Assembly: GCF_004799325.1 (NCBI RefSeq)
Contig: NZ_SSMD01000002.1
Span: 1 to 64,000 of the forward strand
Origin: Thalassobius vesicularis
Lineage (GTDB): Bacteria > Pseudomonadota > Alphaproteobacteria > Rhodobacterales > Rhodobacteraceae
Direction of reading: 5' to 3'
Length of the DNA: 64,000 nucleotides
Shown here: piece by piece, positions 1 through 5,768 of the stretch
How positions within the stretch are numbered: the stretch's first letter is position 1
Layout of the letters: every line of letters starts with the position of its first letter
Position numbers and translations under genes: made by a program
Notes under the pieces: model-generated
The model's input: the letters and a program-made list of their open reading frames with translations, nothing else
What the model was told of the DNA's origin: nothing
Database searches by the model: none

Positions 1-234
1 CAGCACGGCTTTAGAGTGTCGATGAGCGGCAAGGGAAATTGTTATGACAACTCCGCGGTGGAGACCTTCTTCAAAACAATCAAGGCCGAGTTGATCTGGC
101 GGCACTCCTGGCCAACGCGGCGGGCGAATGAGATGGCGATCTTCAACTACATAAACGGCTTCTACAATCCGCGCCGACGGCACTCAGCCCTCGGCTGGAA
201 AAGCCCCGTGGCCTTCGAACGGAAAGTGGCCTAA
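1..234 (+). pseudogene. IS3-family transposase OrfB, C-terminal fragment
   Basis: The reading frame is open from base 1, so the gene is cut by the window edge or was already truncated. The 77 visible residues are the end of an rve/integrase-core DDE domain. GNCYDNSAVETFFKTIK carries the catalytic Glu followed seven residues later by Lys, as in IS3-family OrfB proteins, and YNPRRRHSALG is the usual family tail. The first two catalytic Asp residues are not in the window. The fragment sits at the edge of accessory DNA and is followed closely by what looks like the element's right end. The family is clear; whether the element is complete cannot be judged from here. Confidence 0.85.
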
Positions 235-244
235 ACGAGCACTT

Positions 245-272
245 GGGGCGGCACAAAAACGGGACAGGTCCA
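245..272 (+). repeat. Probable right terminal inverted repeat of the IS3-family element
   Basis: Eleven bases after the transposase stop there is a stretch ending in GGGACAGGTCCA. Read on the other strand it begins TGGACCTGTCCCG. IS3-family elements typically start TG and end CA, and their terminal repeat lies just outside OrfB. The left copy is not in the window, so the pairing is inferred from position and ends only. Confidence 0.55.
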
Positions 273-408
273 CAATCATGCGGTGGCGCGGCGTGCCGTT
301 CGCCTATATGAATCGGGAAACCCAGCAGAACCGGCCCAGAGCGGTCATTGCGAATCTGAGCCTATGCTGGGGCGCCGAAACACAGAAGCGGACCTTCTTA
401 CCAACAGA

Positions 409-1236
409 CTATCGCCTAAAATAGTGCTCAGGAGCATTGGACTTGAGCTTCAAAGACGAAGGCTTCAGAAACCTGAAGTTTTCGTCCCGCCATTCTAAGT
501 CCTCGCCTGTTCCATCAGAAGCTAAAGGCAATCCACAAACTGAGCGTCGATGATCTTTGCAGAAACCAACTGGTTTGGCGAAGCCGGTGGTGCCAAGACT
601 GGCGATCTGGGGAAGCCCGCCGGTCATTGGGTCCTCCGCAGTCTCGATCACATCCCACAGCGCCCGGAAGACTGATCGGGACGTATTGCCCGCCTCTCGA
701 ATGCGCCGTTCCCAGAATGCGCGATGCTTTGAAGCCCCGCTTCCAGCGCCGAAGAACTGCCCCGGATCGTCTACTAGGTTCTTTTTTCCATCAGCTCGGA
801 ATTCTAGCTCCTTGTCAGACCAACTATGAGTCCCAGCTTCTTTCACGGTCCTCCAGAGACGGAAGTCGCAACTTTCACCTTCACCGTCGCGAAGGCCATG
901 AAGGACGTGGAGCCCATTGCTCTTTGAATTAGGAAACTCTGCCGTCGCCGATTGCAGGTAGGCCACGAAAGCTAGGTGCCGATCTTTCGGGGTACTATGT
1001 GCAAGTCGAGAGGCTGAATAGTCGAATATCTCGCAAACCTGAGAGACTACGGTACTTTGACTCACGACATCTCCCGCGAACCCAAAAATGTCTGGACTAC
1101 TCTTGCACCAGTAGATCTTTCTGCCGTAGTCCCAGGTTTGACCCGAAACTTTCCAAGTTAGACGACTATCGCTCGCAAAGGTCAGGGCCGAAGGGGCTCC
1201 ATTTTGGTAGGATAGCCAAGCGATCGTCGTAGTCAT
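409..1236 (-). CDS. Proteasome/HslV-type Ntn-hydrolase-like protein
   Basis: 275 residues; I do not recognise a named family, but the N-terminal half follows the proteasome beta/HslV pattern. After the initiator Met comes TTTIAWLS, a Thr that would be exposed by Met removal. Then ASDSRLTW supplies the Asp17-like position, GRKIYW the Lys33-like position and GFAGDVVSQST matches the GFAGGTAD stretch of HslV. Near residue 165, GAGSGASKHRA resembles the GSG motif that shapes the active site. The C-terminal 80 residues have no match I can name. The gene lies 270 bp downstream of, and in the same direction as, a HipA-like kinase pair, next to IS and tRNA boundaries. Proteolytic or amidohydrolase activity is inference; the substrate is unknown. 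Confidence 0.6.
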   Translation of the reverse strand: MTTTIAWLSYQNGAPSALTFASDSRLTWKVSGQTWDYGRKIYWCKSSPDIFGFAGDVVSQSTVVSQVCEIFDYSASRLAHSTPKDRHLAFVAYLQSATAEFPNSKSNGLHVLHGLRDGEGESCDFRLWRTVKEAGTHSWSDKELEFRADGKKNLVDDPGQFFGAGSGASKHRAFWERRIREAGNTSRSVFRALWDVIETAEDPMTGGLPQIASLGTTGFAKPVGFCKDHRRSVCGLPLASDGTGEDLEWRDENFRFLKPSSLKLKSNAPEHYFRR

Positions 1237-1508
1237 CTAGAGACAGCATCCCTTCAAATCAAAGACAAGATTCGTGACTGAATGAAACCACATCTATGCA
1301 ATGAGAGCCATGTTTTTGATATCGGCAATGGCCACAGAACGCTCGTTTGGCCGATTGCTATCACATGGTGACGGCCGACGCCGGCCATCCGTAGATGGCA
1401 CAAACCCTGCACTGCAGTTTACCCAATTCGGACAATATCTGGCCATCAGCATTGAGCGCTGAGAAGAGGATCGTTACGCGGGCCTGTGGCTTCGCCCCTA
1501 ATAGGTAT

Positions 1509-2432
1509 CTATGCCGCCTCAGCCTTGAGAACGTGATCCCCAATCTGCTGGTATGTCTCAAGCGGGCGCAGTCTTAGTTGTTTTTCATCTGCCTGCTCTT
1601 CCAATTCTTTCAGAGCTTCTTCCAAACGACGTTGCTGCTTGTCTGACACTTGTGGATCATCTTTCGCAGGCCGCTGCAGGATCATTTCATAGTTCCGGGC
1701 AGCTATGCTGTTATGGTCCCGGACCTGAACTGTATTCAAATCCCAAAGGCGCAATTTAACCAGTTCAAATGACCTAGGGAGAGACGAGGCTTTGAGAGTT
1801 CCGAAATTTGCAACCAATCGCGAGCCCGAGAAATCAATTACAGGTTCTTGACTGTTCCTTTTCGCGCGTCGCTGTCTGTTTTCACGAAGGTCAGCACTAA
1901 AGAAATCTGCGAAACCGACCCTTTTGCTTTTGACATAGTCGCAAACGAGGAAAGGAAGGCGGTCACCGGAACCTTCTGTCTCAGCGGCAACTTCCACGAA
2001 TTCCCTTGAACGGGAGTCTTGTGCCATGCCGGATTGGTAGAGCGACGAAAGCGCGGCCATCCAGCTTTTAGCAATTCCTTCGAGGCTATTGCCCTCGGCC
2101 TCCCGCGTATCGCCAAACGCAATTCCTGACACCGCTGGGTCCGGTTCGGCAATCGCCCGACCTGCGCGCTTAGCCAAGTCCTCTTGAAGGTACTCACCTG
2201 CGATCTGGATCGCGCTTATGGCGCCACGTGCATTAGAACCGTAGAAGCAGGTCAGGCGCTCAAGTTCGTTGGCCCACTCGAGATGGAAGCTCTGGTCATT
2301 GAAGGCAGCCACGCCCACGACGAACCTCTCATATGAACCGGAAATCGGCTCAAAGAACACGGGTACCCACTGCGCCCGAACTCCGTCGCGCAACTGTGGA
2401 AACACTTTCGTATCAAGCGAAATTTCCATCAT
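1509..2432 (-). CDS. Unrecognised companion of HipA-like kinase (possibly DUF3037-like)
   Basis: 307 residues with no signal peptide or membrane segment. The start region, with WVPVFFEP then ERFVVGVAAF, recalls DUF3037 proteins, which I remember as frequent neighbours of HipA-like kinases, but the match is weak. The last 70 residues are charged and glutamine/glutamate-rich (KQQRRLEEALKELEEQADEK), a likely helix or short coiled coil. The start codon overlaps the stop of the kinase gene (ATG GTA TGA TGG), so the two are probably translationally coupled; ATG at 2432 and 2429 are both possible. The coupling argues that the two proteins work together. Confidence 0.55.
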   Translation of the reverse strand: MMEISLDTKVFPQLRDGVRAQWVPVFFEPISGSYERFVVGVAAFNDQSFHLEWANELERLTCFYGSNARGAISAIQIAGEYLQEDLAKRAGRAIAEPDPAVSGIAFGDTREAEGNSLEGIAKSWMAALSSLYQSGMAQDSRSREFVEVAAETEGSGDRLPFLVCDYVKSKRVGFADFFSADLRENRQRRAKRNSQEPVIDFSGSRLVANFGTLKASSLPRSFELVKLRLWDLNTVQVRDHNSIAARNYEMILQRPAKDDPQVSDKQQRRLEEALKELEEQADEKQLRLRPLETYQQIGDHVLKAEAA

Positions 2433-3226
2433 ACCATCTGCGGCACACCTAGTGCCTTGCTTGCGTCAAGCGGCACTCTAGCCGTTCTTTTCTCAAGAAA
2501 CTCTTTCAGCGCTTCGACATACTGTAGCGGCAACAGGTCAGCAATGCGACTGTTTTGCGAGATCTCACCGGCATCGAAGCCGTCGATCTCAACGCCAAAC
2601 TGTCGCGCGGCCTTCGCACATTTTTTCTTTTGCTCCAAGGTCAAGGACTGCGTTAACCAGAGCCCCAGCTTGTTCAGATACTGTACATCCGGGTCTAAAC
2701 CTTCGGGTTTCCATTCCGGGCCGGTGAAGCAGTGACCATGGTCAATAAGCCAAAATTCGCTGTTGCCACCGAACAGCAAGTTTCCGGCGTGCCGATCCAC
2801 GTTTGCGATCCAAGTATCGTATGCATACAGATGACCCAGATTGCCCCACTGTGCAATCTCAGCCAACAGCGCCTGTCTTCCGGCTGCATCCGACCCTTGC
2901 CATCGGTACGTGACATTCGGAACCTTCACATCGACACTAACGAAGACTAGGCGCGAGCCGTCTGCCGTGTTCGGCGCTTTGCTCACGCTTAGAACCCCAG
3001 GGCGAACGAGTCCCAAATATCCGTCCGGAATCGGCAGCCCCACTTCACGTGCAAGGCAATGAGCAACCAATTCATTACAGAGTTGCACGATGTTTAGGTC
3101 TTTAATTATCGCCTGTTGGACTTCGCCATCTGCTGTTAGAACCTGTCCGCGAAAGGTGTCGTTGACATTATTCTCTTTGAAGCCAGTGGCCCCAGCCAAA
3201 ACGGTTGCGAGTTGAATTTCGGACAT
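2429..3226 (-). CDS. HipA-like serine/threonine kinase
   Basis: 265 residues from the ATG at 3226, chosen over an in-frame ATG at 3274 because CAGGAA lies 8 bases upstream of 3226. The kinase signature is YDTWIANVDRHAGNLLF, a HipA/PI3K-like catalytic loop (W-I-x-N-x-D-R-H-x-x-N), followed by LIDHGHCF in the metal-binding position. The protein is shorter than E. coli HipA (about 440 residues) and lacks its N-terminal subdomain, so it belongs with the compact HipA-like group. There is no HipB-like DNA-binding partner next to it. Instead it overlaps the companion gene at 1509-2432 and is followed by an Ntn-hydrolase-like gene. A toxin, defence or regulatory role is inference from family and setting. 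Confidence 0.75.
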   Translation of the reverse strand: MSEIQLATVLAGATGFKENNVNDTFRGQVLTADGEVQQAIIKDLNIVQLCNELVAHCLAREVGLPIPDGYLGLVRPGVLSVSKAPNTADGSRLVFVSVDVKVPNVTYRWQGSDAAGRQALLAEIAQWGNLGHLYAYDTWIANVDRHAGNLLFGGNSEFWLIDHGHCFTGPEWKPEGLDPDVQYLNKLGLWLTQSLTLEQKKKCAKAARQFGVEIDGFDAGEISQNSRIADLLPLQYVEALKEFLEKRTARVPLDASKALGVPQMV

Positions 3227-3985
3227 TAAATTTCCTGAATAACCGCGAATACACCCGGCACCATTGATACACACGCAAAGCGAGAGTCGGCAAGCACTAA
3301 GGCAGAAGCGAATTCAGTCACGTGGGCGTGAGGCCGAGATACCGGATCGCGACGTTCTGGCGGATATTTCTCTTATCCGCCGCCACCGGGCGGGGGGGGA
3401 TACGGGCAAGCGGCTGTTCGCATTCTTCGTGCGTAGTGTCTATTGTAGCAGGTGCAGCGAACGGCAGCTCTCCGCCCAGTGCTGAGCACATCGATCTTGG
3501 CCTGGCAGGCTTAGCGGAATGTCCGCTTCCGCGGTGAATCCCAAGCGGGTTCGCGCTCGCGGCGATCTTCCGGAATCCGCCCATGGTGTCCATCGCACGC
3601 ACTCTTGGGGACTACGCTCCACGCGTGGTATTGTTTACCTTTTGTCGACGAATGAGACTTCCTAAAGATGAAGATTAAACAGACAAGAGCTTGGGGGCGA
3701 TGGCCAGCGCTTTCAGGATGCCAAAGAGATGACGACCATATAAACCCGCCGTTTCGCTGTCTTTAACAGCTTCAAGGCGCGACTGTCTGATTGCGGAACG
3801 GGTACGAAGTCGCCATTTCCTGTAGAGGCAGATAGATAAGTCGGTAGTCTCGCAGCCGCAGCGGGACAAGAAATCGAAGCCGATTATCTATCTCCAATCG
3901 CTTTCCAAAAGGTGGACTAAAAGGTGGACTGCACCCAAACAAAACAATGCAAACATCTGTAAATATTAGATTTTATCTGATTGCA
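3227..3985. other. 759-bp stretch without a supported gene at island end
   Basis: I see no reading frame with credible protein character here. The short frames on both strands are rich in Arg/Ser/Pro and lack ribosome sites. The part around 3430-3545 resembles the degenerate intergenic sequence often left beside mobile DNA. The last 80 bases before the tRNA-Thr gene are AT-rich and contain the tandem GGTGGA motif described separately. An integrase gene, expected in an integrated element, is not present here. Confidence 0.5.
3910..3929 (+). repeat. Tandem GGTGGA motif, candidate integrase arm site of the tRNA-Thr island
   Basis: AGGTGGACTAAAAGGTGGAC, two GGTGGA units with a 12-bp period, ending 56 nt before the CCA end of tRNA-Thr. 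Near-copies with the same period and orientation occur at 50958-50977 (54 nt before tRNA-Leu) and at 48279-48298. Position and spacing suggest protein-binding arm sites beside an attachment site; this is inference. Confidence 0.5.
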
Positions 3986-4061
3986 TGGTGCCCCCAGAGA
4001 GACTCGAACTCCCGACCCACTGATTACAAATCAGTTGCTCTACCAGCTGAGCTATAGGGGC
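3986..4061 (-). tRNA. tRNA-Thr(TGT)
   Basis: 76 nt including an encoded CCA. The minus strand gives acceptor GCCCCTA pairing with TGGGGGC, D-arm AGCTCAGCTGGTAGAGC, anticodon stem-loop CTGATTTGTAATCAG with anticodon TGT, and T-arm GGGAGTTCGAGTCTCTC. Its 3' end faces the accessory DNA at 1-3985, the usual side for integration of tRNA-targeting elements. No second copy of the 3' end lies between base 1 and the tRNA, so the other boundary of the island is outside the window or lost. Confidence 0.97.
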
Positions 4062-4106
4062 ACTCGGTCGTGAAATAGGCGATGGATTGGCCGCCTGCAA
4101 GCGGAT

Positions 4107-5768
4107 TTAGCGGCTGGCGCGGGCCAGAAGGACGACCGCTGCAAGCCCCACTAGGATCACCAGAACCGCAGCGGGCGAGGCGTCGCCCAGGTTTTCCAGG
4201 CTGGCCTGATCGTGCACGCGGGTGGCCAGGGTGTTGAAGTTGAACGGGCGCAGCAGCAGGGTCGCGGGCAACTCTTTCACGCAGTCCACGAAGACCAGCA
4301 GTAGGGCCGAGCCGATCGAGCCTCGGATCAGCGGGAAATAGACCTGGCGCAGCACCTGTCCCCGTGTGCGACCCAGCGAGCGGGCGGCCATCGGCAAGGA
4401 CGGCGACACGCGACCCATCGCGGCATCCGCAGCCCCCTGTGCAATCGCGAAGAAGCGCACGCCGTAGGCCAGGATCAGCGCAAAGGCCGAGCCGGTCAGC
4501 ACAAGGCCGATGTCGATGCCAGTCAGCAGCTCGATCGTGTCGGCCATCATGTTGTCGAGGATCGCCAGCGGGATCAGGATGCCGACGCCCAGCACAGCAC
4601 CGGGGGCGGCGTAGCCGATGGTGGTCAGCGGCAGCAGAAGGCGGGGCAACTGACGGCCCGACAGGCGGACGCCGTAGACCATGAACACCGCCGCCAGCAC
4701 CGTCACCAGCGCGGCAATCCCGCCGACCATCAGGGTGTTGAGAAACGAGTCGACCAGACGGGGATCGGACCAACGCTCGGCATTCTCGATCGCGTGATGC
4801 AGGATCACGCCTGCGGGCAGCACAAAGCCCATCAGGAACGGGATCAGGCAGGCGATCAGGGCGATCCACCCGGCGGCACCTTTCAGCTGGGCGCGCTCGG
4901 TCGGTCGGGGGCGGTTCGACAGGTTGAAAAAACGGCTTTTGCGGCGGCTGACCTTTTCCAGAGAGACGAGCATCACCACCATGACCAGCACGACACAGGC
5001 GATCTGGGCCGCGCCGCCGGCGTTGTTGCTTTCCAGCCAGACGCTGAAAATGCCGGTCGTCAGGGTCTGGACGGCAAAGTAATCCACGGTGCCGAAATCG
5101 TTCACCGTCTCCATCATCACGACGGCCATACCGGCGGCGATGGCGGGGCGGGCCAGCGGCAGGGCGACGCGGCGGAACCGCTGGATCGCGCCTGCGCCCA
5201 GCGACATGGCGACCTCTTCGGTGGCACCGGATTGTTCGCGAAAGGCGGCACGCGCCAGCAGGTAGACATAGGGATACAGCGCCGCCGACAGCACGATCAC
5301 CGCCGCCCCAAGCGAGCGGATTTGCGGGAACCAGTAATCCCGGGCCGAGGTCCAGCCGAACAGCGCGCGCAGGCCGGTTTGCACCGGGCCGGCATACTCC
5401 ATCAAATCCACCAGCGCGTAGGCCCCGACATAGGCGGGGATGGCCAGCGGCAGCAGCAGCAGCCACTCAAGCCAGCTGGACAGCGGGAACCTGTAGCGCG
5501 CGATGATCCAGGCAGAGCCGGTGCCGACCATGCCCGCCAACACGCCAACCGAACCCATCAGCAACAGCGTCGTGCCCAGATAGCGCGGCAACGTGGTAGA
5601 CAGCAGGTGCGGCCAAATATTGTCGGTCGGGTTCAGCGCGATCCAGATCACCGCAAGAATCGGCAGCAGGACCACGGCCGCGATCAACGCTGCCCCGATC
5701 GACCAAAGACTGGCGGGGGCGCGGCGGGCAGCGGCCGTTGAACGGGCGGAAAGAGTGGTATCGCTCAT
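4107..5768 (-). CDS. Ferric-iron type ABC transporter permease (FbpB family)
   Basis: 553 residues, the double-length permease of the FbpB/SfuB/ThiP type: two consecutive binding-protein-dependent transport domains of about six membrane helices each, separated near residue 280-300 by a charged cytoplasmic stretch (EKVSRRKSRFF). EAA-like loops can be seen in each half (VAMSLGAGAIQRFRRVALPLARPA and the region of RSLGRTRGQVLRQVYFPL). It would move Fe(III), or a related cation or thiamine-like solute, through the inner membrane. The binding protein and ATPase are not adjacent. The ATG at 5768 has AGGAAG six bases upstream. tRNA-Thr follows 46 bp downstream. Confidence 0.88.
   Translation of the reverse strand: MSDTTLSARSTAAARRAPASLWSIGAALIAAVVLLPILAVIWIALNPTDNIWPHLLSTTLPRYLGTTLLLMGSVGVLAGMVGTGSAWIIARYRFPLSSWLEWLLLLPLAIPAYVGAYALVDLMEYAGPVQTGLRALFGWTSARDYWFPQIRSLGAAVIVLSAALYPYVYLLARAAFREQSGATEEVAMSLGAGAIQRFRRVALPLARPAIAAGMAVVMMETVNDFGTVDYFAVQTLTTGIFSVWLESNNAGGAAQIACVVLVMVVMLVSLEKVSRRKSRFFNLSNRPRPTERAQLKGAAGWIALIACLIPFLMGFVLPAGVILHHAIENAERWSDPRLVDSFLNTLMVGGIAALVTVLAAVFMVYGVRLSGRQLPRLLLPLTTIGYAAPGAVLGVGILIPLAILDNMMADTIELLTGIDIGLVLTGSAFALILAYGVRFFAIAQGAADAAMGRVSPSLPMAARSLGRTRGQVLRQVYFPLIRGSIGSALLLVFVDCVKELPATLLLRPFNFNTLATRVHDQASLENLGDASPAAVLVILVGLAAVVLLARASR

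Follow-up and report, generated by a model that had tools for sequence, protein, structure and literature searches.

Fuchs, Alva and Lupas described 22 new proteasome-like families in 2021 (PMC8665760). No genomic context suggestive of function was reported for these families (PMC8665760). Two further proteins of this type are relevant here. BPH was suggested to work without an unfoldase, by analogy with the uncapped 20S, and in connectase helices H1-H2 are missing and an insertion follows S3, before S4 (PMC8665760). No report linking proteasome-like proteins to phage defence was found among the literature matches listed, which were mostly open-access and included PMC13022661.

We analysed a window that spans positions 1-64000 of contig C2, part of a draft genome of 3.79 Mb. 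The window carries a gene for a proteasome-like Ntn hydrolase, and the contig ends 408 bases past it. On balance, we favour reading its product as a competent solitary N-terminal-threonine hydrolase that is carried as island cargo and is possibly a defence accessory.

Gene, predicted fold and proposed active site

The open reading frame at 409-1236 named in the preliminary description is real. It has 275 codons and lies on the minus strand, which that description had left out. On the coding strand, an in-frame TAG stands immediately 5' of the ATG, so no start lies further upstream in frame and Thr is residue 2. Among 52 aligned members, the window protein included, 34 have a Met-Thr or Met-Ser start without an upstream alternative, and 18 have one. 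A Met that precedes Thr is cleaved off by methionine aminopeptidase. A promoter scan of window positions 200-4200 detected nothing. The features of the locus are collected in Table 1.

Table 1. Features of the Ntn hydrolase gene and its surroundings (window positions).
Feature	Position	Strand	Basis
Proteasome-like Ntn hydrolase gene, 275 aa	409..1236	-	ORF list, AlphaFold2 model, Foldseek, conservation
Thr2, proposed catalytic	1231-1233	-	conservation
Asp23 (in ASDSR), proposed catalytic	1168-1170	-	conservation
Lys40 (in GRKIYW), proposed catalytic	1117-1119	-	conservation
Loop Gly52-Gly55 (GFAG)	1072-1083	-	conservation
IS3-family transposase gene, 3' end, cut by contig end	1..234	+	
307-aa protein, no known family, co-directional, 272 bp upstream of Ntn gene	1509..2432	-	
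HipA-like kinase	2429..3274	-	PF20613 HipA_2, E 1.2e-8; weak PADLOC match PDC-M66A, E 9.6e-6
tRNA-Thr (TGT)	3986..4061	-	
Putative island segment	1..3985	.	GC shift; insertion at tRNA inferred

The AlphaFold2 model of the window protein was built from 48 sequences and had a pLDDT of 88 and a pTM of 0.88. Foldseek matched it to 766 PDB chains at E ≤ 1e-3, and the best 50 listed were all proteasome entries with a probability of 1.00. The TM-scores of these 50 were 0.45-0.55 when normalised by the query and up to 0.70 when normalised by the target. Among viral structures, 8 matches were obtained at E ≤ 1e-3, one of them a phage protein named HslV. The model shows helix pairs H1-H2 and H3-H4 with a beta-sheet core; helices 166-181 and 186-199 were taken as H3 and H4, connected by the loop 182-185. 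In this prediction, the protein has the beta-sheet core and helix pairs H1-H4 by which proteasome-like families are recognised. The fold had been named beforehand as a point on which the assignment would turn, and AlphaFold2 and Foldseek both gave a proteasome fold. According to the model, the window protein almost certainly has the proteasome Ntn fold.

The three strands in residues 210-233, after the last helix pair, were taken as the last core strands. The preliminary description had claimed a C-terminal domain of some 80 unmatched residues, but the model shows a tail of only about 40 residues (235-275), which has one short strand and is helix-free. Anbu shares a proteasome-like, non-HslV fold with the window protein and carries a coiled-coil helix, H5, at its C-terminus (PMC8665760), whereas the window model has no helix beyond residue 199.

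Conservation was counted in a 52-row alignment of members that included the window protein. The 48-row alignment is the same without the plasmid rows L004-L007. Excluded from the 52 rows were four fragments (L008, L030, L064 and L069), the distant L020 and L021, L018, whose sequence source is that of L047, and L024, which is near L031. Position 2 was Thr in 50 rows and Ser in 2, and position 23 was Asp in 51 and Glu in 1. Lys40, Gly55, Gly165 and Gly167 were invariant. Position 52, the equivalent of the oxyanion glycine (Gly47), was Gly in 42 rows, Ala in 7, Ser in 2 and Thr in 1. The window protein has its GSG motif at residues 165-167, and the middle residue of this motif was Ser in 35 rows, Thr in 15 and Leu in 2. 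Therefore, the residues named in the preliminary description (Thr2, ASDSR, GRKIYW, GFAG and GSG) are present and are conserved beyond chance across the 52 members, and its expectation that homologues would keep the Thr, Asp and Lys held. Further conserved residues lie away from the proposed active site (W7, W28, SR 186-187, GGxPQ 206-210 and W249).

HslV has the Thr-Thr start in common with the window protein, and a short, non-significant hhalign match places its Asp17, Lys33 and GFAG opposite Asp23, Lys40 and GFAG. In the register of this non-significant match, Thr2, Asp23, Lys40 and the 52-55 loop follow the order of Thr1, Asp17, Lys33 and Gly47-Gly50 of HslV at roughly the same spacing. A difference is that HslV has 174 aa, whereas the window protein is about 100 residues longer and has no PF00227 match. 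In proteasome-like families the mature protein begins with Thr or Ser and has equivalents of Asp17 and Lys33 (PMC8665760); the sequences indicate the same for the members studied here.

In the proposed mechanism, methionine aminopeptidase would remove Met1 and Thr2 would become the nucleophile, so that a propeptide would be unneeded. Lys40 would act as Lys33 does and Asp23 as Asp17 does, with the oxyanion site formed by the Gly52-Gly55 loop. The protein is very probably an active N-terminal Thr hydrolase. As for the earlier claim that no ATPase adjoins the gene, none was seen by eye among the open reading frames at 1.2-9.5 kb on one side; the other side consists of only 408 bases of contig. 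As no dedicated AAA+ unfoldase was found, the substrate may be exposed or unfolded segments, or one specific partner.

Relation to known families and distribution

Searched alone, the window protein gave nothing significant in Pfam, NCBIfam, PADLOC or the PDB sequences, and a PADLOC match was absent even at E ≤ 1. The proteasome models of Pfam and NCBIfam matched none of 48 members (Pfam at E ≤ 0.1). The family profile, searched against PDB sequences at E ≤ 10, gave only four matches, all of them proteasome beta (E 0.21-0.66). The PHROG 'peptidase HslV family' was matched by 2 of the 48 members. Comparing the family profile with those of HslV and Anbu gave no significant match, and the positive control (HslV against Anbu) failed as well; the comparison was too weak and was not used as evidence. 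Judged from its sequences, this is a proteasome-type family without a Pfam or NCBIfam model, and its comparison with the 22 published families is by their descriptions only. The suggestion of a new branch holds insofar as no Pfam or NCBIfam model covers the family, but many unnamed branches have already been published (PMC8665760).

The 22 families, chiefly the PMI group and other group II families, share the Ntn proteasome-like fold and the Thr/Asp/Lys site with the window protein, and they are also alike in having no propeptide and no co-occurring AAA+ partner (PMC8665760). There are three differences. PMI-2 to PMI-6 have an H3-H4 insertion (PMC8665760), whereas the window model has none at loop 182-185. 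The window model, set against the 22 families, has no long loop after H1-H2. Anti-phage genes adjoin several family loci here, whereas no suggestive context was given for the 22 (PMC8665760). Separately, L020:5932-6792 and L021:6563-7492 encode distant relatives with extra segments and without GSG, and these resemble the PMI-family description in PMC8665760.

Two PF00227 matches were found in this genome, and both lie elsewhere than the Ntn gene. From sequence, we take two genes of this genome to be HslV and an Anbu-like gene, the latter presumably so by its MTYCVG start and its neighbours. The idea that the Ntn gene is this genome's HslV or Anbu was ruled out, since both lie elsewhere. With HslV and the Anbu-like gene, the Ntn gene brings the proteasome-type genes of this genome to three. 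The Anbu-like gene (L002:1492-2232) is on the window's contig, about 71 kb beyond the window.

Pattern scans found 43 family loci among 73 matched stretches in genomes and 5 among 42 in the virus collection. The window protein alone found none in the virus collection, and three members used as queries found none in phage records. Six plasmid records carry the family at 23-29% identity (tblastn), and a profile search added more. Family loci are labelled Pseudomonadota, Bacteroidota, Actinomycetota, Cyanobacteriota, Acidobacteriota, Chloroflexota, Gemmatimonadota and Omnitrophota, which makes at least eight phyla. For several of these eight, the label comes from single metagenome bins; a ninth phylum is contributed by Arcobacter plasmids. 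Within its own class the gene is rare. It was present in 1 of 61 relatives, 1 of 289 genomes and 1 of 385 genomes, and each time the one was this genome. In the phylum, 7 of 398 genomes had it, this genome included, and two of the 7 were weak. Among the 41 genomes known to hold the family, 40 have it in a single place (one of them as a fragment only), and the remaining one, Thiothrix fructosivorans, has a family gene broken in two pieces (L064:6001-6370). In a tree of the 52 rows, the window protein sat on a long branch, and its identity to the other rows did not exceed 35%.

Window locus and neighbourhoods of family members

GC was 0.50-0.57 in 1-3985 and 0.57-0.71 from 3.9 to 12 kb, and the low-GC stretch starts at the 3' end of tRNA-Thr. 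The segment 1-3985 is putatively part of an island inserted at tRNA-Thr, the other end of which is off the contig. The tRNA-Thr with the GC shift, the IS3 end, the plasmid records, the virus-collection contigs and the one place per genome are signs of mobility, and the Ntn gene is probably carried on mobile DNA. Next to it, the HipA-like kinase gene and the 307-aa gene overlap by 4 bases; this pair (1509-3274) is possibly an unnamed toxin-antitoxin or defence pair. PADLOC gave the weak PDC-M66A match as the only one among the window's own neighbours.

At several other loci the gene was tightly placed among defence genes. In L005:2538-6822, SIR2 (7e-177) and HerA (4e-288) are followed by the Ntn gene as the third gene, 40 bp after HerA and on the same strand. 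L016:2696-6884 has a SIR2-HerA operon with the Ntn gene in the same third place, 40 bp after HerA and on the same strand. The L016 HerA is broken by one in-frame stop, so this operon may be dead. The Ntn gene was absent from the 3.5-kb flanks of the five next plasmid HerA matches, indicating that it is at most optional in SIR2-HerA. In L041, AbiLi (2e-75) and AbiLii (2e-10) precede the Ntn gene, which starts 46 bp after AbiLii on the same strand. In Nostoc (L032:2295-8477), it lies within a type I restriction-modification operon, between HsdR (3e-255) and HsdM (1e-221). In L038 it is flanked by presumed RNA-repair genes, Pnkp and Hen1 (from Pfam families, with the placement by eye). Neighbours scanned at L006, L007, L033 and L039 gave nothing in PADLOC at E ≤ 1e-6, and L062, L065 and L068 adjoin apparent housekeeping genes (by eye).

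The neighbour test covered 28 loci whose contigs were 95 kb or longer. Of these, 25 came from the 43 genome loci and three from a genome search; the L005, L041 and L032 operons fall outside this set. Gene calling relied on a simple codon-usage script instead of a standard caller, and the two nearest called genes of at least 100 aa on each side counted as neighbours (101 proteins). Controls were drawn from random windows on those contigs (99 proteins from 27 windows, L108 yielding no protein). At E ≤ 1e-12, the 101 neighbour proteins matched 114 PADLOC models, whereas the 99 control proteins matched 11. PADLOC models are redundant and this tally names no proteins; hence 20 of the 101 focal proteins were scanned singly. 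At least 11 of the 28 loci had a PADLOC match among their near neighbours, which is a lower bound. The matches were HerA (L016), Old (L019), RT-TIR (L027), AbiO/Nhi (L028), cll (L042), PDC-S06 (L044 and L060), the SIR2-like PDC-S25 (L048), PD-T7-1 (L056) and Drt3b (L058). L061 was counted as presumed positive because three members match PDC-S06; L060 and L061, both among the 11, are near-copies. PDC-S68 was also matched in the pooled tally, with its protein assigned to no locus. Single proteins scanned from L017, L038, L046, L049, L053 and L059 had no PADLOC match, nor did two of the proteins scanned from L044 and L048.

The control matches were 13 model-protein pairs that were not traced to proteins (mad3 3, JetC 4, JetD 2, IetA 3 and TRIP13 1), and these 13 set the strict ceiling for control loci. 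The number of control loci is at most 7 if models of the same name share a protein, and 5 if JetC falls on the same protein as JetD, and IetA on the same as TRIP13. Judged by P-loop motifs, it may be 4. Thus, probably 4-7 of 28 control windows had a defence match. One-sided Fisher tests gave p = 0.20 for 11 versus 7 of 28 and p = 0.07 for 11 versus 5 of 28. When general models were dropped, which was decided once the data had been seen, the counts were 9-10 versus 1 (p = 0.003-0.006). As the excess per locus is weak, the defence association is a lead, and an excess by loci is not established.

Phage integrase was the commonest Pfam family among the neighbours (4 of 101 proteins). No fixed partner emerged: when neighbours were clustered, groups had two or three members, and several were duplicate islands or transposases. 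The only partner common to loci beyond these was SIR2-HerA, at two loci.

Possible functions

The Ntn gene would travel as self-standing cargo on islands, plasmids and virus-collection contigs, often among anti-phage genes, and its product would most likely be an accessory hydrolase of such islands. A defence-related role for the family is plausible, if somewhat short of probable. The anti-phage loci give a testable functional hint with named operons, a context that the 2021 survey did not have, and a family found in at least eight phyla is a small single-gene target for experimenters. A bolder version holds that a solitary, horizontally moving proteasome-type threonine hydrolase is an unrecognised anti-phage add-on, cutting or joining a specific protein after infection. 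We regard this as rather unlikely. Such an add-on could fit systems unrelated to one another: SIR2-HerA, AbiL and type I restriction, as well as loci of the PrrC-like and reverse-transcriptase kinds. Where it accompanies SIR2-HerA, its unfoldase might even be the HerA ring. Were the defence role correct, the proteasome fold would be linked to bacterial immunity.

Alternatively, an active Ntn hydrolase may serve the mobile element itself, for example by processing an element protein, with the defence genes as mere co-riders on the island. The differing contexts of family members, the frequency of phage integrase among neighbours and the presence of the gene on virus-collection contigs are consistent with such a passenger. 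Still, the tight same-strand placement after HerA (L005 and L016) and AbiLii (L041) and the position within HsdR-HsdM (L032) argue against it, and we think it somewhat unlikely. A homo-oligomeric ring could instead dispose of unfolded proteins unaided by an unfoldase, as suggested for BPH (PMC8665760). This would agree with the H1-H2 and H3-H4 pairs of the modelled proteasome fold and with the absence of an AAA+ unfoldase beside the gene on the one side seen in the window. However, the sparse distribution is unlike that of a housekeeping gene, and the genome already has HslV and Anbu; solitary proteostasis is an unlikely function here. Conserved positions away from the proposed active site are a hint of one particular substrate or partner, and connectase, a monomeric archaeal enzyme, shows that the fold is capable of specific protein ligation (PMC8665760). 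A ligase or amidase of this kind is nevertheless quite improbable, since connectase is without H1-H2 and has the S3-S4 insertion (PMC8665760), whereas in the window model H1-H2 are present and no insertion of that length is seen.

Two further explanations carry little weight. Non-catalytic proteasome-like subunits exist, such as alpha subunits (PMC8665760), and a catalytically dead relative might act as a scaffold; with Thr or Ser at position 2 in 52/52 members, Asp23 in 51/52 and Lys40 in 52/52, this is very unlikely. The Ntn gene might also be the third component of the HipA-kinase operon, with which it shares strand and order in the window. This is hardly credible, because the kinase and 307-aa pair occurs without the Ntn gene on Marinobacter (L130) and Rahnella (L131) plasmids (4-kb flanks), a 272-bp gap separates them here, and the pair was seen by eye at no other family locus among those listed. 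The pair was dropped as part of the Ntn system, as it stands without the gene on these two plasmids.

Genes just downstream of the Ntn gene showed RxxxxH-like motifs in L004, L007 and L033 (by pattern) and in L035 (by eye). A HEPN partner was considered and dropped, being neither shown nor excluded; the gene that was modelled is that of L027, which is other than the RxxxxH-motif genes. This downstream gene (L027:6859-7653) had no PDB structure match at E ≤ 1e-3 and no sequence match at E ≤ 1. Its model (pLDDT 84) was mostly helical, with an NxxKHG-like motif, and relatives of the protein were found in four other genomes.
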